A stretch of 64,000 nucleotides of DNA, taken from Candidatus Nanopelagicaceae bacterium. GTDB taxonomy: Bacteria; Actinomycetota; Actinomycetes; Nanopelagicales; Nanopelagicaceae. How positions within the stretch are numbered: position 1 is the first letter of the stretch; every line of letters begins with the position of its first letter. The notes beneath the pieces are model-generated. The model saw nothing but the letters and a program-made list of their open reading frames with translations, had not been told where the DNA came from and made no database searches. Position numbers and translations under genes: made by a program. Shown here piece by piece: positions 52,152 to 62,468 of this stretch. The stretch lies in the NCBI GenBank assembly GCA_018882885.1, contig VERG01000005.1:1-64000 (forward strand), given 5' to 3'.

Positions 52152-52157
52152 TTGATG

Positions 52158-52982
52158 ATGAATCTGGTATCCCACTACGAAATCTCCAAAGTTGAGGGCT
52201 TAGTAAATCGAGTCAGATTTGGAGATCGCATCGTTGAGTATTGGGGAGGAGGCCCAAATTCTAGGGGGCTTCTCATAGCTCATGATGGACAATGTATTTT
52301 TGATTGGCGTACCGCGAAAGAAAATACAACTTGGCGGCTCGCCGAAAATATCTCAGAGTTAGCCAGTGAGTTCAACGCTCCAACCCCCTTAATTGTCGCA
52401 ATATGGCATCAAGGCGCAGTCGGAGATTCCGTTTCTCGTGGTCGCGATCTATCGCCAGAGGATTATTTCAAATCTGGAATTGAATTATTTCCAAAAAATG
52501 GCCCATTTGATGTCGATGCCATAGAGGGAAATAAATATCTTAGAGAGATCTTTGAAATCTACATCCCATCCATATTGAATGCAACAAGTACCTACGCGAC
52601 TCCTGAAACTACTGCAATGATTGGAGCTAGCCGAGGTGCGCTATCCACCCTCTATGCACTAAATAAATATCCAGAAAAATTCCACACAGCCTTAGCCCAC
52701 TCAACCCATTGGCCCATTGGCAGAAATCCCCTCGTTAAGTTAACAATTGAAAATCTTCCAAACCCTGGAGTACACACAATTTGGATGTCCCATGGAACAG
52801 AAGGCTTCGATTCAGAATACGAGCCATTTCAGAAATACGCCCATGAGTTACTAGAAGACAAGGGATATGTGCTTGGGCAGGATGTCACTTTCCGTTTGTA
52901 CCCCGGCGCTGGACATACTGAAGCGGCATGGGCCGATCAATCTCGCAATTCGTTACGAAATTGGTTTAAGAAAATCGTTTGA
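52158..52982 (+). CDS. Putative alpha/beta-hydrolase esterase (esterase D/Fes-like)
   Basis: About 274 residues, without a signal peptide. The nucleophile elbow IGASRGALS (G-x-S-x-G), a late GAGHTEAAW (catalytic His) and a fold typical of the esterase D group are visible; SHGTEGFDSEYEP may carry the acid residue. It lies just upstream of the LacI-type operon, 84 bases before that regulator's start, in the same direction but with its own promoter. A role in deacylating the imported compound is possible but unproven. Confidence 0.75.
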   Translation: MNLVSHYEISKVEGLVNRVRFGDRIVEYWGGGPNSRGLLIAHDGQCIFDWRTAKENTTWRLAENISELASEFNAPTPLIVAIWHQGAVGDSVSRGRDLSPEDYFKSGIELFPKNGPFDVDAIEGNKYLREIFEIYIPSILNATSTYATPETTAMIGASRGALSTLYALNKYPEKFHTALAHSTHWPIGRNPLVKLTIENLPNPGVHTIWMSHGTEGFDSEYEPFQKYAHELLEDKGYVLGQDVTFRLYPGAGHTEAAWADQSRNSLRNWFKKIV

Positions 52983-52988
52983 GAGGTA

Positions 52989-53016
52989 TTGACTTGTGCC
53001 TGAAAGGGAGTAATTT
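52989..53016 (+). promoter_or_regulatory. Sigma70-type promoter of the LacI/ABC/ADP-ribosylglycohydrolase operon
   Basis: TTGACT (52989-52994), 16-base spacer, TAATTT (53011-53016). Expected transcription start about 53022-53024, just at the edge of the palindromic operator. Confidence 0.7.
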
Positions 53017-53024
53017 TGCGTAGC

Positions 53025-53048
53025 AGAACTGTAAACGTTTACAGTTCT
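53025..53048. promoter_or_regulatory. Perfect 24-bp palindromic LacI-family operator
   Basis: The half-site AGAACTGTAAAC (53025-53036) is followed at once by its exact reverse complement. The TAAACGTTTA core with central CG is the classic LacI/GalR operator form. It begins eight bases after the -10 box, so a bound repressor should block initiation of its own operon. Confidence 0.88.
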
Positions 53049-53066
53049 GAGGGGATGTGGTCCGGA

Positions 53067-54065
53067 ATGGATAAGACTCACGGCCGAGCAACGTTGCATG
53101 ATGTCGCTCGCAAGGCCGGGGTTTCGATTGCCTCTGTTTCGCGAATGGTTAATGGCCAGACGGTCAGACCCAGTCTTGAGGGGCGAATTCAAGATGCGAT
53201 CGAAAAGCTGAACTACCAAGCCAACTCCGCGGGGCGTGCTCTACGCGCGCGACGTACTGAGCAAATCTGCCTCAGTGTTCCGGATATCTCCAATCCAGTT
53301 TATCAATCTATTACCAAGGGCGTGCAGTTGGGTTTAGAGGGTACGAATTACAGAATGATGCTGGCACCTCAAGTTTCAAGTGCTGAAGATGTATTGAGAC
53401 AGATAAATTCTTTAAATAGTAATTATGCAGATGGCTTAATCCTTTTGTCTCTTGTTGATGATACCCGTATTAAAAAGGCGGTTGAAAAACTAGATATCCC
53501 AATAGTCACTATTGGAAACGTGGACATTAATAGAGAAACTGACAGCTTGAAGGTGGCGCCTAATGCTCTAGATATTGCCGTTGAATACCTGAACCGAAAA
53601 TATGGAAGCAGAATACTTTTCGTCAACGGCCCAAAAGAAACCATTCCAGGCAAGATTCGTGGGGCTGGGTTTGAGCGCGCCATTAAGAATCTTGGAATCG
53701 AGAAAACCTGCAAATCTGTCGAGTCTAAAACTTTTAGTGTAGAAGGCGCAGTAGAAGCTCTAACTTCCTTAGCAAATCTGAATTCTTATAAATCTGTGAT
53801 GTGTGCAAATGACGTAATTGCAGCTGGCGCCTTGCGCTACTTTTCTTCTAATAAAATCAGAGTTCCCGAAGATGTGGCTGTAATGGGGATTGACAACACG
53901 GATCTTGCTACCATTTTGAGCCCATCTTTGACAACTATTGATTACAACGCAATAGAGCGCGGAAAGCTTGCCGCAAAATTCTTAGTGGACAGAATTCAGA
54001 ATCCATCTGCACCAGTGAAGAGAATTGAAGTACAACCAAGATTGGTAGAGCGTGATTCCGCATGA
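53067..54065 (+). CDS. LacI family transcriptional regulator
   Basis: About 332 residues. The HTH ATLHDVARKAGVSIASVSRMVNG followed by the hinge region precedes a periplasmic-binding-like sensor domain (from about residue 65, with GLILLSLVDD, ILFVNGPKET, VMCANDVIAAGALRYF and AVMGIDNTDLA). It should bind the 24-bp palindrome just upstream and release it on a sugar-like ligand. ATG 53067 is taken as start; ATG 53055 is possible; a TTG at 53016 would lie before the operator. First gene of a nine-gene operon, ATGA overlap with the first permease. Confidence 0.92.
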   Translation: MDKTHGRATLHDVARKAGVSIASVSRMVNGQTVRPSLEGRIQDAIEKLNYQANSAGRALRARRTEQICLSVPDISNPVYQSITKGVQLGLEGTNYRMMLAPQVSSAEDVLRQINSLNSNYADGLILLSLVDDTRIKKAVEKLDIPIVTIGNVDINRETDSLKVAPNALDIAVEYLNRKYGSRILFVNGPKETIPGKIRGAGFERAIKNLGIEKTCKSVESKTFSVEGAVEALTSLANLNSYKSVMCANDVIAAGALRYFSSNKIRVPEDVAVMGIDNTDLATILSPSLTTIDYNAIERGKLAAKFLVDRIQNPSAPVKRIEVQPRLVERDSA

Positions 54066-54976
54066 AGAGTTCACTAAAGCGAGGTAAGCCGACCAGTATT
54101 GAAGCTCAGGATAGAACCATCAAATTGATGATGTTGCCACTACTTTTAACAATAATTCTATTGAGCACTCTCCCGCTACTTTTATCGGTATTTGCGGCAT
54201 TTACAGATTGGTCAGCTGGAATTGATGTGCCAATAAACTTCATCGGTCTGGAAAATTTCCGATACATGCTCACAGATACTCAATTCTTCGCTTCTTTCAA
54301 ATTGGGATTAATTTGGACTTTGCTTGTAACGTCACTAACCACTGCCATGGGGGTTGGTTTATCTCTTTTACTAAATCAAGAGAAGAGGTACATGATTCCT
54401 CTGAAAGTTATAGCGCTTTCTCCGTGGGCTATGTCTCCGCCGGCGATCGCCGTAATCTGGACAACTTTAATGAATCCAAACAGTGGACCAGTTAATCAAT
54501 TTCTGAGAACTTTTAATCTACCGGGCGGCGATATCGGCTTTTTAGAAGATCCAACACTTTTCTTTCCAACCTTGATAATCATAGGCGCATGGGCCCTAAT
54601 GCCAATGATTACTCTTGCAGTTTTAGCGGCCCTAAAGACAATTCCGAAAGAATTAGAAGAGTCTATGGAAGTAGATGGTGCAAATGCTTTTAGGAAATTT
54701 AGATATTTAATTCTGCCTCACATAAAGCCAATTCTCGTGCCACTCGTGGCGCTCAATTTGATATGGAATTTTGGTGCATTTGATTTGATATATGTGATTG
54801 TTGGAAGTTTCCCCCCGCCCAATTCGGAGATTCCAATCGTTTTTGCATTCCGTCAGGCCTTTAAATATGGAGAGTTTGGCTATGCCAGCGCTTTGGGAGT
54901 GGCAATTGCAGTTGCTGAAATTCTTCTGGTTATGGCAATTTTGAGAAAGCAATTTAAGGCGATGAGCGAGCAATGA
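54062..54976 (+). CDS. Sugar ABC transporter permease (MalF/UgpA type)
   Basis: A 304-residue binding-protein-dependent permease with six helices. The EAA loop reads EESMEVDGANAFRKFRYLILPHIKP, which docks to the ATPase. It pairs with the next gene as a CUT1-type importer. No ATPase gene occurs in the operon, so a shared MsiK/UgpC-like ATPase must act, as is common for actinobacterial CUT1 systems. Confidence 0.93.
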   Translation: MKSSLKRGKPTSIEAQDRTIKLMMLPLLLTIILLSTLPLLLSVFAAFTDWSAGIDVPINFIGLENFRYMLTDTQFFASFKLGLIWTLLVTSLTTAMGVGLSLLLNQEKRYMIPLKVIALSPWAMSPPAIAVIWTTLMNPNSGPVNQFLRTFNLPGGDIGFLEDPTLFFPTLIIIGAWALMPMITLAVLAALKTIPKELEESMEVDGANAFRKFRYLILPHIKPILVPLVALNLIWNFGAFDLIYVIVGSFPPPNSEIPIVFAFRQAFKYGEFGYASALGVAIAVAEILLVMAILRKQFKAMSEQ

Positions 54977-55788
54977 AAGTAATTAGAGTCATTGCAACTA
55001 TTTTCTACACCCTATTTTTTGCAATCCCCATTGTTTGGTTATTGTTGACCTCAATCAAGAGTGAGATACAGATTGGTAGTCGAGACTTGATTATTTTCCC
55101 CGACAATCCATCTTGGAATAATTACGAAGTTGCTGTAACACGAAGCGGGATAGGACGTTCTGCTTTCAATAGCTTCTGGCTTTCAGCTGTTTCTGCTCTA
55201 ATAACCACCTTAGTCACCGCTCCCGCCGCATATCTTGTCGCACAATCAAAAGGACTTTTAGCGAAGGCAACAACAGGTTGGATCTTGAGTTCTCAAGTTT
55301 TTCCCTCACTATTAACTGTTATCCCACTATTTCTCATTTACGTGAAAATTGGCCTGTACGACAATTACATCGGAGCCATTATTCTTTATGTGATCTTTAA
55401 TCTGCCTTTTGCTCTTTGGATTCAGCGTGGATTTATTAGGAACATTCCTGGTGAAATTATTGAAGCAGGAAGAATAGATGGCGCGTCAGGTGTGACATTG
55501 TTGAGAACAATAGTATTTCCGCTTCTTTTACCGGGTTCTATAGTTGTAATGATTTATACATTTATTAATTGCTGGAACAACTTTTTAATCGCGGTTGTTT
55601 TCCTTCAAGGTAATGAAAAACAGACTCTCACGACTCAGATGGCACGATTCATAGGAACAGAGGGTCAAGGCTTGCTTGGCCCATTGGCAGCAGCGACAGT
55701 ATTGGCAATAACCCCATCGTTAATTTTATTTGCCATACTGCAACGAAAATTCTCAACTAACTTGATATCGGGTTCCGTAAAAGGTTAA
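54973..55788 (+). CDS. Sugar ABC transporter permease (MalG/UgpE type)
   Basis: A 271-residue permease with six helices and the EAA loop IEAGRIDGASGVTLLRTIVFPLLLP. It starts with a short N-terminus typical of MalG-like subunits and overlaps the first permease by four bases (ATGA). Confidence 0.93.
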   Translation: MKVIRVIATIFYTLFFAIPIVWLLLTSIKSEIQIGSRDLIIFPDNPSWNNYEVAVTRSGIGRSAFNSFWLSAVSALITTLVTAPAAYLVAQSKGLLAKATTGWILSSQVFPSLLTVIPLFLIYVKIGLYDNYIGAIILYVIFNLPFALWIQRGFIRNIPGEIIEAGRIDGASGVTLLRTIVFPLLLPGSIVVMIYTFINCWNNFLIAVVFLQGNEKQTLTTQMARFIGTEGQGLLGPLAAATVLAITPSLILFAILQRKFSTNLISGSVKG

Positions 55789-55819
55789 TTGGGATAACTA
55801 CAGGAGAAAAGGAAAAAAA

Positions 55820-57100
55820 ATGAGCACAATGAAAGGAAAGCGATTCGGAAGAATCTCAAGATTCTTTATCGGATCGCTTGTAGTGGCGCTGACTGCAGGA
55901 CTGGTCCCAAGCCAATCAGCTAGTGCAGCACAGGAAATCCGCTTCATGTCTTGGGCATGGCAAGAACCACACATCAAACTCTTGAAGGAGCTTGTTGCTG
56001 ATTGGAATAAGAAGAATCCAAATACTCAAGTGAAGTTTGAGTTAGTTGATGAAGAGGGAATGTACACAGCTCTTTCCACCGGATTCCTCGCTGGAACAGC
56101 TCCAGATGTTATTGATACCGAAGCTGCTGCAGCCTTGCAGTATGCCCAAAAAGGTTATCTTTACAATCTGACCCCATCATTCCGATATATTCAAAAGGAA
56201 ATTAATCCTGGCATTTGGAAGACTGCCAGTTCTCAAGCGAAACTCTTCGGAGTTCCTTACTTCATTGAGCAATATCTAGTCGCTGCAAACGTAGATCTAG
56301 TTAAGAAGCTTGGCGGAACATTGCCAAAGCCAACTGACAAATTTACGTGGGAAGATTTGCGCGCACTTGCCAAAAAAGTAAGCACAACAACAACCCCAGG
56401 TTTAGGTGTTGGTCTAAGCCAAGCGGCAAAACTAACAATGGTTTTAGGACCAACATACGGGGCTAAATACTTCGTGGGAATTACTGCAGGTTCTAAAGCA
56501 AAACTTGTTCAGGGTGATGCTGAATTAGCTATTGTGAAGAATTTCGCAGACATGATTCAAATCGATAAAAGCATCGATGCTCGCTACGTTAGCTCGAATC
56601 CTCAGACTGAGTTCATGGCAGGCACCTTGCCATTAATCTTTACAAAGAACTCACTAGCAGGCACCTTTGATACGGCTAAGAGTTTGAATTATCAGTATCT
56701 ACCGATGATCTCAGGACCTGCGGGTAGCGCTCAAGCGCCGACTGCAGGAATTTATGCTGTAAATGGCCGTACCAAGCAAGCCAAGGAATCAATTCGTTTC
56801 GTTAAGTACTTAATGGAATCAGATAACTTAGCAAGGACTGCCATCGCCATCGGTGGTGGATTACCAGGCACTTCAAGTGCTCAAAATAGAGTTAAGGAGA
56901 TAAAGAAGGGTGACGCTAACTGGCAGCAAATCATGAGCCAAGGCGAGAACTTAACTACAGCTCCTTTCCTCTTCGTTCCTCAGTGGGAAGCTTGGAAGGG
57001 TTCTTTCCAGAATCCGCAAGCACGATTGTTGTATACCGGCAAAATAACCCTTGCTGAATACAAGAAAGCAATCACCACGGGTTGGAACGGTCTCCGTTAA
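55820..57100 (+). CDS. Extracellular solute-binding protein, family 1
   Basis: A 426-residue binding protein of the sugar ABC importer. Signal peptide about residues 1-36 (cleavage near ASA-AQE). The mature start EIRFMSWAWQEPHIKLLKEL and TQVKFELVDEEGMYTAL are typical of family 1. There is no lipobox Cys, unusual for a Gram-positive binding protein, so anchoring is unclear. A strong AAAAGGA lies six bases before the ATG. The ligand is unknown; Trp and Tyr residues in the N-lobe would fit a glycoside. An 18-bp hairpin follows the gene. Confidence 0.92.
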   Translation: MSTMKGKRFGRISRFFIGSLVVALTAGLVPSQSASAAQEIRFMSWAWQEPHIKLLKELVADWNKKNPNTQVKFELVDEEGMYTALSTGFLAGTAPDVIDTEAAAALQYAQKGYLYNLTPSFRYIQKEINPGIWKTASSQAKLFGVPYFIEQYLVAANVDLVKKLGGTLPKPTDKFTWEDLRALAKKVSTTTTPGLGVGLSQAAKLTMVLGPTYGAKYFVGITAGSKAKLVQGDAELAIVKNFADMIQIDKSIDARYVSSNPQTEFMAGTLPLIFTKNSLAGTFDTAKSLNYQYLPMISGPAGSAQAPTAGIYAVNGRTKQAKESIRFVKYLMESDNLARTAIAIGGGLPGTSSAQNRVKEIKKGDANWQQIMSQGENLTTAPFLFVPQWEAWKGSFQNPQARLLYTGKITLAEYKKAITTGWNGLR

Positions 57101-57126
57101 ACCTTAGTTACGGAGCCCGATTAATT

Positions 57127-57166
57127 TAGTACAGAGACAGAACTAATAAGTTCTGTCTCTGTACTA
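57127..57166. repeat. 18-bp perfect hairpin between binding protein and hydrolase genes
   Basis: TAGTACAGAGACAGAACT (57127-57144), loop AATA, and its exact reverse complement (57149-57166). No T-run follows, so it is not a standard intrinsic terminator. It probably protects the binding-protein mRNA end or reduces read-through into the hydrolase genes. Confidence 0.9.
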
Positions 57167-57189
57167 CCAAATGAGATTTGGAGAAAAAA

Positions 57190-58323
57190 GTGTTTGAAGC
57201 AAAAGTTCACGGCGCAATAGCAGGAGCTGCGGTTGGAGATGCGCTAGGAGGTACAACTGAAGGATTTAGCCCACAGCAAATACAGGATAGGTACGGAGGA
57301 TTTGTTGAGGGCATAGAGGGTCCTTTTCATCCGGATTATGAGAACGCTCGTCCAATCTCACCTTTTCACAAAGGGGACGGACACATAACAGATGACACTT
57401 TGATGACAGAATCCCTGATTTCGATTTATGAACAGGTTCGAGATCACCTGGACGCTTTTGATTTTGCCAAATTGATTATCCCCGAACTCATTGAGAAAAA
57501 AAGATTTATTCCAGAATTACATAAGGAAACCCTATTGATTCACCGCGTTTTTTTTGCAGAAAAATGGTTGGTTCAAAGACTTCACTTTGGGCATGTTGAT
57601 CCACGTGAAGCCGGTGTTGGAAATATGGTTAATTGTGGCGCTGCCATGTACCTAGCTCCAGTAGGTGTAGTTAACGCCGGTAATCCCTGGGAAGCGTATA
57701 AAGAAGGAATCGAAATAGCTGCTACTCATCAATCTAGCTTTGGCAGAGAAGCGGCGGGTGTTTTTGCAGCGTGCGTCGCCCACGCATTTACGCCTAAAGT
57801 GACGGTGAATGAAATTGTTGAGATGGCAATAGAACTTGCTAATGATGGAACAAAGAAAGCCATTCAAGCTGTATATCAAAAGGCAAAGACTCTTTCTGAC
57901 TGGAAGTCCGCAATAAATCCGCTAAGAGAAGCTTTCAAGCCTTATGACACTTTAGAAGATGAATATAGACAACAAGGCGACGATGCTCGTAAACCAAGTA
58001 GATTATTGGCCATAGAGGAGCTTCCAATCGCACTTGGAATGTTAGTTGTTAGTAAGGGTTCCTATAGAGAAGGTGTTCTCGGCGGTGTGAATTATGGTCG
58101 CGATTCCGACTCAATTGCGACCATGACCGGAGCAATTTCCGGTGCCCTAAATGGTGTTTCGGGAATTCCGAGTGAGTGGCTTTCCAAAGTGGAAAAAGAA
58201 AGTCGTCGCGATTTTGCTAAATCTTCAGCACTACTAACCGATATTGCCATAGAAATACAAACGAAAGATAAGTCGCATCAAGAACTCGTCAGTAAAATAC
58301 AAAACGAAATGTTTGGTTTATGA
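57190..58323 (+). CDS. ADP-ribosylglycohydrolase family protein 1
   Basis: A 377-residue helical protein of the ARH/DraG fold, which uses two metal ions to cleave N- or O-glycosidic bonds of ribosyl groups. The N-terminal AGAAVGDALGG, the metal motif HITDDTLMTESL (D-D-T, about residues 61-63) and the C-terminal GRDSDSIATMTGAISGAL (D-x-D, about 302-304) are intact, so it should be active. GTG 57190 is chosen because GGAG lies six bases upstream. No signal peptide: it works in the cytosol on the imported compound or on proteins. Confidence 0.9.
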   Translation: MFEAKVHGAIAGAAVGDALGGTTEGFSPQQIQDRYGGFVEGIEGPFHPDYENARPISPFHKGDGHITDDTLMTESLISIYEQVRDHLDAFDFAKLIIPELIEKKRFIPELHKETLLIHRVFFAEKWLVQRLHFGHVDPREAGVGNMVNCGAAMYLAPVGVVNAGNPWEAYKEGIEIAATHQSSFGREAAGVFAACVAHAFTPKVTVNEIVEMAIELANDGTKKAIQAVYQKAKTLSDWKSAINPLREAFKPYDTLEDEYRQQGDDARKPSRLLAIEELPIALGMLVVSKGSYREGVLGGVNYGRDSDSIATMTGAISGALNGVSGIPSEWLSKVEKESRRDFAKSSALLTDIAIEIQTKDKSHQELVSKIQNEMFGL

Positions 58324-59303
58324 TGGTAGTGAATTTGATTGATAGGGCACGGGGATGTCTGGCGGGATTGGCGGTGGGCGATGCACTGGGTCGGCCAGTA
58401 GAAGGTATGTCGGCCCAAGAAATCCGAGAGAAGTATGGCTCGGTCTCTGACTTTGTAAATATGACCCCGGGTGGAAGTGATGACACGGAATACGCACTAT
58501 TGACAGCAAGTGCAATTTTGAAATACGGGAGAGAAATAACCGCAGACAACTTTGCTGATTTTTGGATAGAAAAAGTTTGTCCGCAAAACCAAGCCTTTGC
58601 AGGGGCAGGTTTTAGTGAGATGAATGCAATTGCCAATTTAAAGAATGGATTAAGGCCGCCACGCTCAGGTCAGCATAATCATGCTTGGAGTGATGGATTG
58701 GCAATGAGGGTTGCCCCGGTCGGAATTGTTGCGGCTGGAGATTACGAAGTGGCAAAGCGAATTGCAATTGCTGATGGAATGGTTAGTCATGCAGGTGAAG
58801 GAATTCACTCCGGTGTTGTCATTGCCGTAGCGATAGCTGCGGCAATGAATGGGCTTGATGCAGACACAATATTTGATGACTCATGCAAAGCGATATCCAA
58901 AGACACTTGGACACATCGCTCAATGATGAGTGTAAAAGAAATAGTTCTGGCTAATAGGAATCTTCCAAAGAGTGAAATTGCCGACCTGTTACTAAAAAAG
59001 GTAGCTGTAGAAGATTATTTCTACGCAGATCTTGCTCCCGAAGCCGTTTCGCTCGCAATGGCGGCGGTTCTGTACGGAGCGGGAGACTACGTGGAAACCC
59101 TACTTTTTGCAGTTAATTTGGGTCGGGATGCGGACACGATCGCAGCTATGGCAGGCGCAGTAGTGGGTGCGATGTCAGGATATGAAGCGATTCCTGATAA
59201 CTGGAAGCGGGCAGTAATTTCTGTCGGTGGAACTTGTTTGCAATTTGCTAAGGGATTGAATCCTTATACAGTTGCAGAACAATTGATTGGTGTGGGGCGT
59301 TAA
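58320..59303 (+). CDS. ADP-ribosylglycohydrolase family protein 2
   Basis: A 327-residue paralogue with full metal motifs: GLAVGDALGRPVEGM, GGSDDTEYALL (D-D-T) and LGRDADTIAAMAGAVVGAM (D-x-D). It is closer to the compact family core than its neighbours, with segments such as HNHAWSDGLAMRVAPVGI and HAGEGIHSGV (substrate-site His and Glu). ATGA overlaps join it to proteins 1 and 3, so the three are made together, perhaps as subunits. Confidence 0.9.
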   Translation: MMVVNLIDRARGCLAGLAVGDALGRPVEGMSAQEIREKYGSVSDFVNMTPGGSDDTEYALLTASAILKYGREITADNFADFWIEKVCPQNQAFAGAGFSEMNAIANLKNGLRPPRSGQHNHAWSDGLAMRVAPVGIVAAGDYEVAKRIAIADGMVSHAGEGIHSGVVIAVAIAAAMNGLDADTIFDDSCKAISKDTWTHRSMMSVKEIVLANRNLPKSEIADLLLKKVAVEDYFYADLAPEAVSLAMAAVLYGAGDYVETLLFAVNLGRDADTIAAMAGAVVGAMSGYEAIPDNWKRAVISVGGTCLQFAKGLNPYTVAEQLIGVGR

Positions 59304-60322
59304 TGAAGATTGAACTTACAAATCAAATCAAGGGATTAATTTTCGGAATGGCATTTGGAGATGGGCTAGCCGCTCCTTCCGCCACTAACCGTTTAAGTAT
59401 TCTTGCACCCAAGCGAATTATGAGAATGCGATCACTATCTGAGTTTGCTGACGAAAATTTGCATACCACGCGACCTGTTCCATACACGCATGCACAACCA
59501 GGAATAATGCTCAATCCTTCACCCTCAGATGACTCAGAATGGTTCGGGTTTGTAGCCACCTATCTTTTGAATGGGCAAAGTAGTGAAGCGGCATGGGTAC
59601 AGCTTGCAGCGCATAAAGATCAGGTGAGAGCTAGGACTGGTACCAAAATTGCACTAAAAAACCTTGCAAACGGATTACTTCCACCCCATTCAGGGCACGA
59701 CAATCCTCACTATTTTGACGATATAGCACTCATAAGGGCAGTTGCGGTAGCTTCAATCTATTTCACAAACCAGCATGAAATGCTTGCCAAAGTACAAGAG
59801 GACATTACTTTTACTCATAGTGAAGATGGTCTTTATTGTTCTCAATCTATCGCAGTTTTATTCGCTTCAATCTTGAGAGGTGAAGGCAAATCCCAAGCGA
59901 TAAATAACGCATTACAATTTCTTCCAGGAGAATCTTGGTCATCATATCTGGTGGCTGATGCCATGAATAAAGTAGGACAAACTTCAAATACCTTTACCCG
60001 AGCTCTGATCTTGGAGGAGCAGTTCATCGAGAATATCTATGCGTATCCAATCTCTGCACCAGAAACTCTCGGACTTTTATTGGCACATCTATCTAATACG
60101 GAGACTGCAGAGGGATTGATTAATTCTACTCTTTTGCACAAACGAAAGCTTGATTCACTTCCACCGCTTGCAGGGGCACTTGCAGGAGTACTGTATGGAA
60201 CGGAATGGTTGCCAGAAACCTCTTTGAACGAGTCAATTTCACTTGCTGGTGTCTGCATTCCAGATCTAAAAGGTACAAAGCTTCTTCAACTTGCCAATGC
60301 AATTATAGAGTCACACAACTAG
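59303..60322 (+). CDS. ADP-ribosylglycohydrolase-like protein 3, degenerate metal site
   Basis: A 339-residue relative of the preceding two proteins. GMAFGDGLAAPS and PSDDSEWFGFVATYLL (D-D-S for D-D-T) mark the N-terminal half, and HSGHDNPHYFDDIALIRAVAVASIY matches the middle segment of protein 2. In the C-terminal motif the usual R-D-x-D-T becomes RKLDSLPPLAGALAGVLYG, so one metal-binding Asp is Lys. It may have altered or lost catalysis and act as a partner or a binding subunit. One base separates it from the CoA-transferase start. Confidence 0.8.
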   Translation: MKIELTNQIKGLIFGMAFGDGLAAPSATNRLSILAPKRIMRMRSLSEFADENLHTTRPVPYTHAQPGIMLNPSPSDDSEWFGFVATYLLNGQSSEAAWVQLAAHKDQVRARTGTKIALKNLANGLLPPHSGHDNPHYFDDIALIRAVAVASIYFTNQHEMLAKVQEDITFTHSEDGLYCSQSIAVLFASILRGEGKSQAINNALQFLPGESWSSYLVADAMNKVGQTSNTFTRALILEEQFIENIYAYPISAPETLGLLLAHLSNTETAEGLINSTLLHKRKLDSLPPLAGALAGVLYGTEWLPETSLNESISLAGVCIPDLKGTKLLQLANAIIESHN

Positions 60323-60323
60323 A

Positions 60324-61541
60324 GTGTCAGCTCTCGCCGGATTGCGTGTAATTGATTGTGCAACCCTTTTTGCTGGACCAACCGCATCATTATTGCTGGG
60401 TGATTTTGGTGCAGAAGTCATAAAAATTGAACACCCTGAGTCTGGCGATCCGGTTCGAAATCACGGCTACAAGAAGAATGATCAATCACTCTGGTGGACC
60501 TATATTTCAAGGAATAAGAAAACGCTTGCATTAAATCTTGGTAATTCAAAAGGGGCAGAAGTATTCAGAAAATTAATTGAAAACACCGATGTCTTAATCG
60601 AGAACTTTCGTCCTGGAACGCTTGAGAAATGGGGTCTGGCTCCCGAAGAACTTCACAAAGTTAATCCTCGCTTAATAATTGCAAGAGTTACAGGATTTGG
60701 ACAAGCCGGCCCTTACAGTCGCCGGCCTGGTTTTGGAACCCTTGCAGAAGCTATGAGCGGATTTGCAAACTTAACTGGAACTCCTGATGGACCGCCAACA
60801 TTGCCGGCGTTTGGTTTAGCGGACGCGATTGCAGGAATCACTACAGCGCAAGCCGTTATGACTGCGCTTTTCGCATTAAACAATTCCAATTCTGAAGCCT
60901 TTGGAAAAGGCCAAGTAATAGACACTTCACTGCTTGAACCAATAATGTCTACTCTCGGTCCACAGTCACTTATTTTTGATCAGTTAGGAATTAAACAAAA
61001 ACGCACTGGAAATCGAACAGAGAATAACGCCCCAAGAAATACCTACAAGGCTAAGGATGGAAAGTGGCTTGCAATATCCACATCTGCACCATCCATTGCG
61101 GCAAGAGTAATGACATTGGTAGGCCACCCCGAGGTAATTAATGAACCTTGGTTTCAAGAAGCAAGATCACGTGTGGCACACGCAGATCAGCTCGATACAT
61201 ATATCAATCAGTGGATTAGCCAACGCGATAGCGTTGAAGTCATTGCTGCATTCACAGAGGCAGAGGCTGCAGTTGCTCCAATTTACGACATCGAAGATCT
61301 ACTCATAGATCCGCAGATTCAAGCCCGTGAAACGATAACACGAGTTAATGACCCACTCTTAGGTGAAGTTGCGATGCAAAATGTCATTTACCAAATGTCT
61401 AAAACGCCCGGACAAATAAACTTCACCGGGAGACCAAAAGGCGCCGATACCCGTGAAATTCTCGAGAAATTTGCATCCCTATCGCCAGATGAGATTATTG
61501 AGCTTCACAAAGCGGGGGTGGTATTTGATGCTAATGCGTAG
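60324..61541 (+). CDS. CaiB/BaiF family (family III) CoA-transferase
   Basis: A 405-residue CoA-transferase. The start LAGLRVIDCATLFAGPTASLLLGDFGAEVIKIEHPESGD, given here in family form, with SRNKKTLALNL and LIENFRPGTLEKWG is diagnostic. The catalytic Asp is expected at D167 in AFGLADAIAG. These enzymes move CoA between carboxylic acids, for instance succinyl-CoA to malate or citramalate. GTG start. With the adjacent CitE-type lyase it suggests activation then cleavage of a hydroxy acid. Confidence 0.92.
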   Translation: MSALAGLRVIDCATLFAGPTASLLLGDFGAEVIKIEHPESGDPVRNHGYKKNDQSLWWTYISRNKKTLALNLGNSKGAEVFRKLIENTDVLIENFRPGTLEKWGLAPEELHKVNPRLIIARVTGFGQAGPYSRRPGFGTLAEAMSGFANLTGTPDGPPTLPAFGLADAIAGITTAQAVMTALFALNNSNSEAFGKGQVIDTSLLEPIMSTLGPQSLIFDQLGIKQKRTGNRTENNAPRNTYKAKDGKWLAISTSAPSIAARVMTLVGHPEVINEPWFQEARSRVAHADQLDTYINQWISQRDSVEVIAAFTEAEAAVAPIYDIEDLLIDPQIQARETITRVNDPLLGEVAMQNVIYQMSKTPGQINFTGRPKGADTREILEKFASLSPDEIIELHKAGVVFDANA

Positions 61542-62328
61542 CTTTCTTTATGTGCCCGGTGACAATCAAAAGTTTCTGGACAAGGTCGAATCATCAAATG
61601 CAGATGCCATAATTTTGGATTTAGAAGACAGCGTTAAATTTGATTCCAAAGAAATCGCCGAAAACACTTTGCGTGAGTTTTTGAAAAGCACAAGTCTCAA
61701 TAATCTAATCCTAAGAGTTGAGCCATCACGAATAGTGAATGTCTTAGACCTAATTAATCACCCGAAGATCTCTAAGATTTACCTTCCAAAGGCAGATTCA
61801 AAACAAGCGGTAGATGCTTTAAATGAGCAAAACTCTGCCAAGAAACCAATCCACGCAATTATCGAATCCTCAATAGGGCTAGAGAAGTTATCTGAAATCG
61901 CCTGCATGGAGAATGTCCAATCTCTTGGAATCGGTGAGGCAGATTTCCTTGCTGAAATTTCGCTTTCTGACGTTGTACATGAGAGTTTGAAGTCTTATGC
62001 CAGAAGCCGAATTGTTATTGCTTCGGCCGCTTATAAACTTCAACCACCTGTTGCTCCAGTTAGCAGCAATTTCAAAGATTTAAGAAAATTCGAAAGCGAA
62101 ACGAAAGAATTCTTAGAGATGGGATATTGGGGTAGAGCATGCATACATCCAGCTCAAGTAGATATCGCAAATTCAATATTTACCCCTGATGAAAAATTGA
62201 AGAGCAAAGCGGAGATCATTATTAATGCATTAGAAAAATCATCAGGCGGGGCAGCGGTAGATGATGAGGGAAAGATGGTTGATGCTGCACATCTGCGTTG
62301 GGCACAAAGATACAGAGATCTATTCTGA
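61528..62328 (+). CDS. HpcH/HpaI aldolase/citrate lyase (CitE) family protein
   Basis: A 266-residue TIM-barrel lyase resembling malyl-CoA and citramalyl-CoA lyases. [19 protein letters not shown] (Glu and Asp), [13 protein letters not shown] (metal Glu), [11 protein letters not shown] (metal Asp) and [14 protein letters not shown] are in order. The usual VNS after the third strand is EPS. It should split a 3-hydroxyacyl-CoA into acetyl-CoA or propionyl-CoA and glyoxylate or pyruvate. ATG 61528 overlaps the CoA-transferase by 14 bases; ATG 61534 is close. Confidence 0.88.
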
Positions 62329-62333
62329 TTAAA

Positions 62334-62468
62334 ATGAAAGCAAAAACCAAGAACGGCTTTCCGCCCAAGATCTGCCAACGCTGCGGACTTGAGTTTGAAT
62401 GGCGCAAGAAATGGGCCCGTGATTGGGCCCAAGTCAAATACTGCTCAGAGCGCTGCAAACGCGGTTAA
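62334..62468 (+). CDS. DUF2256 family small zinc-ribbon-like protein
   Basis: A 44-residue protein, easily missed by size filters. It has the DUF2256 pattern: a basic N-terminus, [16 protein letters not shown], and [11 protein letters not shown]. Two C-x2-C / C-x3-C pairs (ICQRC and YCSERC) should bind one zinc. Function is unknown; in other bacteria it often lies near photolyase or cryptochrome genes, none of which is seen here. It begins five bases after the lyase stop, has no strong ribosome site, and ends exactly at the convergent oxidoreductase stop. Confidence 0.85.

Follow-up and report, generated by a model that had tools for sequence, protein, structure and literature searches.

A sugar-type catabolic operon built around ADP-ribosylglycohydrolase-family proteins in a freshwater actinobacterium

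A 64,000-nucleotide stretch of DNA from a Candidatus Nanopelagicaceae bacterium (contig VERG01000005.1, positions 1 to 64,000; hereafter the window) carries on its plus strand, at 53024–62328, an operon in which an operator is followed by genes for a LacI-family regulator (LacI), two permeases (PermF and PermG), a solute-binding protein (SBP), three proteins of the ADP-ribosylglycohydrolase family (ARH1, ARH2 and ARH3), a CoA-transferase (COAT) and a CitE-type lyase (CITE). ARH proteins are best known for erasing ADP-ribosylation. We give about even chances to the reading that this operon serves the LacI-controlled uptake and breakdown of a ribofuranoside-type conjugate, in which ARH proteins would hydrolyse the conjugate, ribose would pass to ribokinase and the acid would be cleaved as its CoA ester. 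The gene set recurs in variant forms in many Streptomyces and in other Actinomycetota, many of them soil actinobacteria, and its ARH components include two probable hydrolases and a conserved degenerate paralogue.

Results

Organization of the operon and its operator

The window genome comprises 1.29 Mb on 35 contigs, its close relatives with named contigs are Candidatus Nanopelagicaceae and other freshwater Actinomycetota metagenome-assembled genomes, and the host is an acI-type lake bacterium. Every operon gene scored above the cut-off of its Pfam family in a profile search, and the genes listed by a first-pass annotation of the window were all present on the plus strand at the positions it gave. 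The features are as follows.

52152–52982, plus strand: EST, a PF00756-type esterase (alpha/beta hydrolase) and probable associated gene (Pfam; orthologues at the same place)
52989–53016, plus strand: promoter-like TTGACT-N16-TAATTT, just 5′ of the operator (sequence; same layout in relatives)
53024–53049, no strand: LacI operator, perfect 26-bp palindrome CAGAACTGTAAACGTTTACAGTTCTG (sequence; single genome site; relatives)
53067–54065 (start 53055 or 53067), plus strand: LacI-family repressor (Pfam, NCBIfam)
54062–54976, plus strand: PermF, CUT1 permease of the MalF/UgpA type (profile matches)
54973–55788, plus strand: PermG, CUT1 permease of the MalG/UgpE type (profile matches)
55820–57100, plus strand: SBP, sugar-type solute-binding protein with a signal-peptide-like N terminus (profile matches)
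57178–58323, plus strand: ARH1, ADP-ribosylglycohydrolase-family probable hydrolase (Pfam, residues, tree)
58320–59303, plus strand: ARH2, ARH-family probable hydrolase (Pfam, residues, tree)
59303–60322, plus strand: ARH3, degenerate ARH2 paralogue (residues, tree, predicted ARH fold)
60324–61541, plus strand: COAT, CaiB/BaiF family III CoA-transferase (Pfam, catalytic Asp kept)
61528–62328 (start ATG 61528 or 61534), plus strand: CITE, HpcH/CitE-type acyl-CoA lyase (Pfam, core residues kept)

Overlaps of 4 nucleotides join LacI to PermF, PermF to PermG and ARH1 to ARH2. ARH2 and ARH3 share 1 nucleotide, a 1-nucleotide gap separates ARH3 from COAT, and COAT overlaps CITE by 8–14 nucleotides, depending on which of its two start codons CITE uses. 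The binding protein gene is flanked by gaps of 31 nucleotides on its 5′ side and 77 nucleotides on its 3′ side. Directly 3′ of the lyase gene, a small cysteine-rich open reading frame (window 62335–62467) is zinc-ribbon-like and may share the transcript.

The operator, cagaactgtaaacgtttacagttctg, lies between the promoter-like stretch and LacI, and a genome-wide search with its 18-bp core (up to 3 mismatches) found no second site. The same or a nearly identical palindrome, AACTGTAAACG(A/T)TTACAGTT-like, stands ahead of LacI in the eight relatives inspected, most of which have a TTGACT/TTGACA-like −35 box 5′ of it. An automated consensus scan did not list the promoter at 52989–53016 because its −10 box (TAATTT) is poor. 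The TTG at 53016 precedes the operator and is not the start of LacI; the gene starts at ATG 53055 or 53067. LacI has PF00356 and Peripla_BP_3 domains, and its closest NCBIfam models are those of RbsR, with scores far under the cut-off. The simplest reading of regulator and operator is one self-controlled operon.

Two probable hydrolases and a conserved degenerate paralogue

The three ARH genes are the only PF03747 genes in the window genome, and their products matched ADP_ribosyl_GH (PF03747) with 165.9 (ARH1), 208.1 (ARH2) and 89.1 bits (ARH3; cut-off 26.2 throughout). The two-metal site (T/S-D-D and D-x-D-S/T) and the catalytic Glu are present in ARH1 and ARH2 and incomplete in ARH3. Across the alignment, ARH1 keeps E28, T71-D72-D73 and D309-x-D311-S312 in 81 of 81 rows, and ARH2 keeps the equivalents of E28, S53 D54 D55 and D270 D272 T273 in 57 of 57. 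In ARH2B, a fourth type found in relatives, none of the 75 rows has lost the Glu or the first residue of EDDD. Since every catalytic and metal residue checked is kept, ARH1 and ARH2 are probably working hydrolases.

By contrast, the catalytic Glu of the window ARH3 is replaced by Ala and the first Asp of DxD(S/T) by Lys, with the other metal Asp residues kept. Among its orthologues, wherever a row has a letter at the position, Ala or Gly (rarely Thr or Val) stands in place of the Glu, and Val, Lys, Leu, Asn or His in place of the second motif's first Asp; 57 of 59 rows retain the other Asp residues. Counted over 58 rows, nearly every one shows both losses. The predicted ARH3 structure (mean predicted local distance difference test (pLDDT) score 83) found as its best match 1t5j (E 8e-07), an ARH structure, and the structure search returned no significant match to any non-ARH fold. 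The matches include an entry for the human ARH3 E41A mutant, whose change we take to be at the same Glu that operon ARH3 has lost. A decaying gene was considered and rejected, as the orthologues share the same losses and a conserved core. ARH3 is a conserved degenerate paralogue of ARH2; the two travel together across loci, and ARH3 most likely serves ARH2 as a partner that is non-catalytic or altered. Of the three ARH enzymes proposed in the first pass, three PF03747 proteins therefore remain, two of them probable enzymes and the third lacking the Glu and one Asp.

In the tree, each of the four ARH types has its own well-supported clade, and ARH3 is sister to ARH2; some background rows sit on long branches and the deeper order is unsure. 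We rejected three recent tandem copies as the origin of the ARH genes, as neighbours are 24–27% identical, share no long DNA repeats and belong to separate old clades.

The characterised ADP-ribosyl hydrolases DraG, Tri1 and ARH3 share the PF03747 family and the two-metal site with operon ARH1 and ARH2. The operon proteins differ from them in their catabolic-operon setting, in the losses of operon ARH3 and in their equivalog scores, which reach at most 70.2 bits for DraG (cut-off 337) and at most 70.8 bits for Tri1 (cut-off 490), so that we did not file them as DraG- or Tri1-like agents of protein de-modification. The broader possibility that the ARHs take ADP-ribose off proteins or small molecules and so regulate the neighbouring catabolic enzymes, as DraG acts on nitrogenase reductase, would fit the structure matches, in which the characterised ARHs are ADP-ribosyl hydrolases and are matched by the ARH3 model. 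We judge it very improbable, given these scores, an operon that holds no ADP-ribosyltransferase gene, and the presence of up to four distinct old ARH clades per operon together with ribokinase and importer.

Conservation of the gene set

An ARH1 scan of one genome per species yielded 544 confirmed relatives, and the best 80 of 544 were used, a Streptomyces-rich set confined to those nearest to ARH1 (identity of about 53% and above). Selection was by ARH1 alone, and no other operon gene was used; downstream counts refer to loci with at least 7.5 kb downstream (n = 67) and upstream counts to loci with at least 8 kb upstream (n = 69). The loci come mainly from Streptomyces, with other Actinomycetota and two Trueperaceae. 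COAT and CITE were both found in 62 of the 67 loci, bearing out the proposed co-occurrence of the ARH genes with this pair. The same loci contained ARH2B (66 of 67), a PfkB kinase (ribokinase; 44), GH620, a label that we coined for a protein of about 620 residues (12), and a related esterase (10). ARH2 and ARH3 were each present in 53 of 69 loci, a contig end being close by in the four loci with only one of the two, and importer genes (LacI–permeases–binding protein) in about 39 of 69. Both Trueperaceae (Deinococcota) loci have the same ARH set, one of them also COAT, CITE and GH620. Given the gene order and co-occurrence across Actinomycetota and Deinococcota, we rejected chance clustering.

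Within the order Nanopelagicales, ARH1 occurs in 18 of 296 genomes and ARH3 in 8 (9 counting the window), so the operon is patchy there. LacI, the two permeases, the binding protein and ARH1 are invariant in the inspected loci wherever the contig allows. ARH1 is followed by either ARH2 and ARH3 or ARH2B (about 447 amino acids) and GH620, and COAT and CITE come next in some loci and are missing in others. The idea that these two ARH modules replace each other holds in Nanopelagicales and was rejected as a general rule, because elsewhere ARH2B mostly accompanies ARH2 and ARH3. In one Nanopelagicales genus (L030, L031, L035, L144, L148 and L149), the ARH operon, with either module, faces a convergent operon for an AMP-binding acyl-CoA synthetase and a branched-chain-amino-acid-type ABC importer.

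A separable CoA-transferase–lyase module

COAT matched CoA_transf_3 (PF02515) with 379.7 bits and keeps the catalytic Asp of LADAIAG; CITE matched HpcH_HpaI (PF03328) with 83.3 bits and has the conserved Arg, Glu, Asp and HPxQ. Compared with the named equivalogs (succinate–glutarate, formyl/oxalate, mesaconate and carnitine), COAT reached at best 229.4 bits against a cut-off of 750, and the nearest named model for CITE, the (S)-citramalyl-CoA lyase RipC/Ccl, scored 110.6 bits (cut-off 375). With no equivalog cut-off reached, neither protein yielded a name for the acid; family knowledge suggests a relative of malate or citramalate. The itaconate/citramalate route (CoA-transferase plus RipC/Ccl) has the same sequence of CoA activation and CitE-type cleavage that we propose for the operon, whereas the operon transferase belongs to family III and the operon contains no itaconyl-CoA hydratase gene.

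The first-pass annotation had named a transferase and lyase that co-occur elsewhere without ARH genes as evidence against its reading, and such pairs were found. Among 247 sampled genomes of the phylum, all six of Streptomyces type with ARH1 had a COAT relative together with ARHs, and about 20 others had one without ARHs, often with CitE, IclR and MmgE/PrpD. Six genomes of one Nanopelagicales genus, in which the ARH operon lacks COAT–CITE or is cut off, carry a same-clade COAT elsewhere; in four of the six it lies in a cluster that adjoins an IclR regulator and includes genes for amidohydrolase, PF04199 cyclase and MmgE/PrpD. COATs of these IclR clusters are about 60–68% identical to those of ARH operons and have a CitE-type lyase alongside or nearby; unlike the operon, the clusters have no ARHs and no CUT1 importer, show other upstream chemistry and do not always have the lyase adjacent. 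Pairs without ARHs, together with ARH operons without the pair, make the acid-splitting step a separable plug-in module. In the trees, the COATs of ARH operons do not form one clade: the label ‘in ARH operon’ changes at least 3 times on supported branches for COAT and at least 2 times for CITE. The pattern fits repeated recruitment or exchange of the same function, although a single gain with two losses would also give three changes, and the Trueperaceae row is on a long branch.

IclR-type clusters with a CoA-transferase and MmgE/PrpD and no ARHs recur in Actinomycetota (L212–L215; also L180, L181, L187 and L195–L197). They usually include a CitE lyase, and several have an amidohydrolase, a PF04199 cyclase and a major facilitator superfamily (MFS) transporter.

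Importer and trans-encoded ATPase

Pfam matched BPD_transp_1 to both permeases and SBP_bac_8/1 to the binding protein, so that the operon holds the two permeases and binding protein of a CUT1 importer. The binding protein is MalE-like and the CUT1 permeases are of the type typical for glycosides; a search for the binding-protein ligand among PDB relatives gave only weak partial matches. The sugar ABC importer of the first pass thus stands for these three components and lacks an ABC ATPase in the operon. A UgpC-type ATPase encoded elsewhere in the window genome (459.3 bits, cut-off 432) would, we infer, pair with the operon importer as a trans UgpC/MsiK-type subunit. Regulator, permeases, binding protein and trans ATPase are common to the operon and to LacI–CUT1 sugar operons with a shared MsiK/UgpC ATPase, whereas the window has ARHs in place of CAZy-type glycosidases.

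In many Streptomyces (various loci among L050–L115), the ARH block lies between gltB/VIT1 and lgt/trpA/trpB-type genes, often with no importer. Two Streptomyces-type genomes carry the orthologous importer away from the ARH block (L259:5738-11058 and L260:6503-12963), flanked by genes for an APH-type phosphotransferase and an EryCIII-like glycosyltransferase. Such a block could degrade a compound made in the cell (metabolite repair or reserve turnover), with the lake bacterium applying the same enzymes to an imported version. Although its frequent importer-free position and the missing binding protein orthologue in 4 of 6 genomes speak for this, an importer is present in about 39 of 69 loci and in the window, and we regard the idea as scarcely credible.

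Ribokinase, esterase and GH620

Operon PfkB kinases of relatives scored 298.3, 269.3 and 259.5 bits against the ribokinase model TIGR02152 (cut-off 299.65), and the window genome encodes a bona fide ribokinase outside the operon (301.9 bits). In-operon ribokinase in 44 of the 67 loci and this trans copy make the release of a ribose-like sugar more plausible, and the kinases lend the ribose part of the pathway moderate support.

EST, encoded directly 5′ of LacI in the window, matched PF00756 with 28.6 bits (cut-off 22), its orthologues (61–62%) occupy the equivalent position in three other Nanopelagicales loci (L030, L031 and L146), and it probably belongs to the gene set of the operon. Nine Microbacteriaceae/Nocardioides-type loci have esterases of the same family within or 3′ of the operon. 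At its C terminus, GH620 carries an FGE-sulfatase-type domain, and the model of its N-terminal part resembles GH13, GH27 and GH129 barrels; given the low confidence of this model (mean pLDDT 65), we used only the general likeness to TIM-barrel glycosidases. Esterases and GH620 are optional extras of the operon. L036:2408-4276 and the A5 members, at about 620–690 residues, fuse a glycosidase-like TIM barrel to an FGE-sulfatase-type domain; no Pfam family matches the barrel, and the protein may represent a new glycoside hydrolase family.

These partners bear on a further alternative, which we consider unlikely: the substrate would be a non-riboside furanoside, such as an apiose-, arabinofuranose- or galactofuranose-containing plant, algal or microbial glycoside, with the ARHs as general furanosidases and the acid module treating acyl decorations freed by the esterase. 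The esterase and glycosidase-like partners would suit it, as would the MalE-like binding protein, CUT1 permeases of the kind typical of glycosides and the roughly one-third of loci without ribokinase. Where kinases are present, though, they are close to the ribokinase equivalog, and known ARHs bind ADP-ribose via its ribose.

Discussion

From the observed gene content, its conservation, the residues, the operator and the ribokinase and ATPase genes in trans, we infer the substrates and reactions of the following pathway. The ligand would be a furanoside conjugate, most likely a ribofuranoside with a 3-hydroxy-dicarboxylic-acid-type group (a malate or citramalate relative), taken up by the CUT1 importer with energy from the shared UgpC/MsiK-type ATPase encoded elsewhere. 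Hydrolysis of its glycosidic bonds would fall to ARH1 and the ARH2/ARH3 unit, and the esterase may remove acyl groups. Ribose would be phosphorylated by ribokinase, encoded in trans here and in the operon in many relatives, and the family III CoA-transferase would convert the freed acid to its CoA ester, which the CitE-type lyase would split into acetyl-CoA and a keto acid. Much of the first interpretation survives in this scheme, namely a LacI-regulated catabolic operon, ARHs as probable hydrolases and COAT–CITE coupling in 62 of 67 loci; what changed is the number of probable ARH enzymes, two rather than three, and the acid step, which is separable.

Several observations weigh against this pathway. 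COAT and CITE score far under every named equivalog model, and the pair is found without ARHs, beside IclR, amidohydrolase, cyclase and MmgE/PrpD genes, while ARH operons without the pair occur in several Nanopelagicales. An importer is often absent next to the Streptomyces ARH block, and the orthologous binding protein is absent in 4 of the 6 Streptomyces-type genomes tested. The ARHs might also accept furanosides other than ribosides.

Related gene sets are known. E. coli yegTUV encodes a transporter, an ARH and a sugar kinase whose functions are described as unknown (PMC10819704). With yegW/ggaR and yegX, it resembles the operon sets in having a transporter, an ARH, a PfkB-type kinase and a regulator, and a putative glycosyl hydrolase is encoded alongside. 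It differs in its single ARH (29% identical to ARH2), its MFS-type, nucleoside-type transporter, its GntR-type regulator and its lack of CoA-transferase, lyase and second and third ARH. A set borne by the staphylococcal cassette chromosome consists of an ARH, a nucleobase-type permease and a ribokinase (PMC3637587, PMC3321955), and likewise differs from the operon in having a single ARH, another transporter and no acid module. Both sets couple ARHs to uptake and sugar kinases, which we counted in favour of the proposed pathway. Their nucleobase- or nucleoside-type transporters and sugar kinases also suit a salvage of nucleosides, NAD or ADP-ribose by the ARHs, in which the CoA-transferase and lyase would act on an unrelated, merely co-regulated acid, as the separability of COAT–CITE would allow. 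The presence of both genes in 62 of 67 ARH1 loci argues instead for a single pathway, the importer is of the CUT1 sugar type and the operon has no nucleobase-processing gene; we find salvage distinctly unlikely. A literature search, with most subscription journals outside its coverage, returned no paper combining ARH with CoA-transferase and citrate lyase. The operon parts belong to known families and related ARH–kinase–transporter sets exist; it is thus a sugar-type catabolic operon with unusual hydrolases rather than something categorically new.

We tentatively propose, at somewhat less than even chances, that its ARH-fold proteins are a widespread set of true nutrient glycoside hydrolases, with a degenerate subunit paired with an active paralogue, ribokinase as the sugar sink and a repeatedly recruited or exchanged CoA-transferase/CitE module. 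The conserved ARH2/ARH3 pairing is directly testable. If confirmed, nutrient breakdown would be a second role for the ARH family, would give a function to many genes of Streptomyces and freshwater actinobacteria whose annotation may be misleading, and would indicate that soils and lakes offer a sugar-acid compound not recognised so far.

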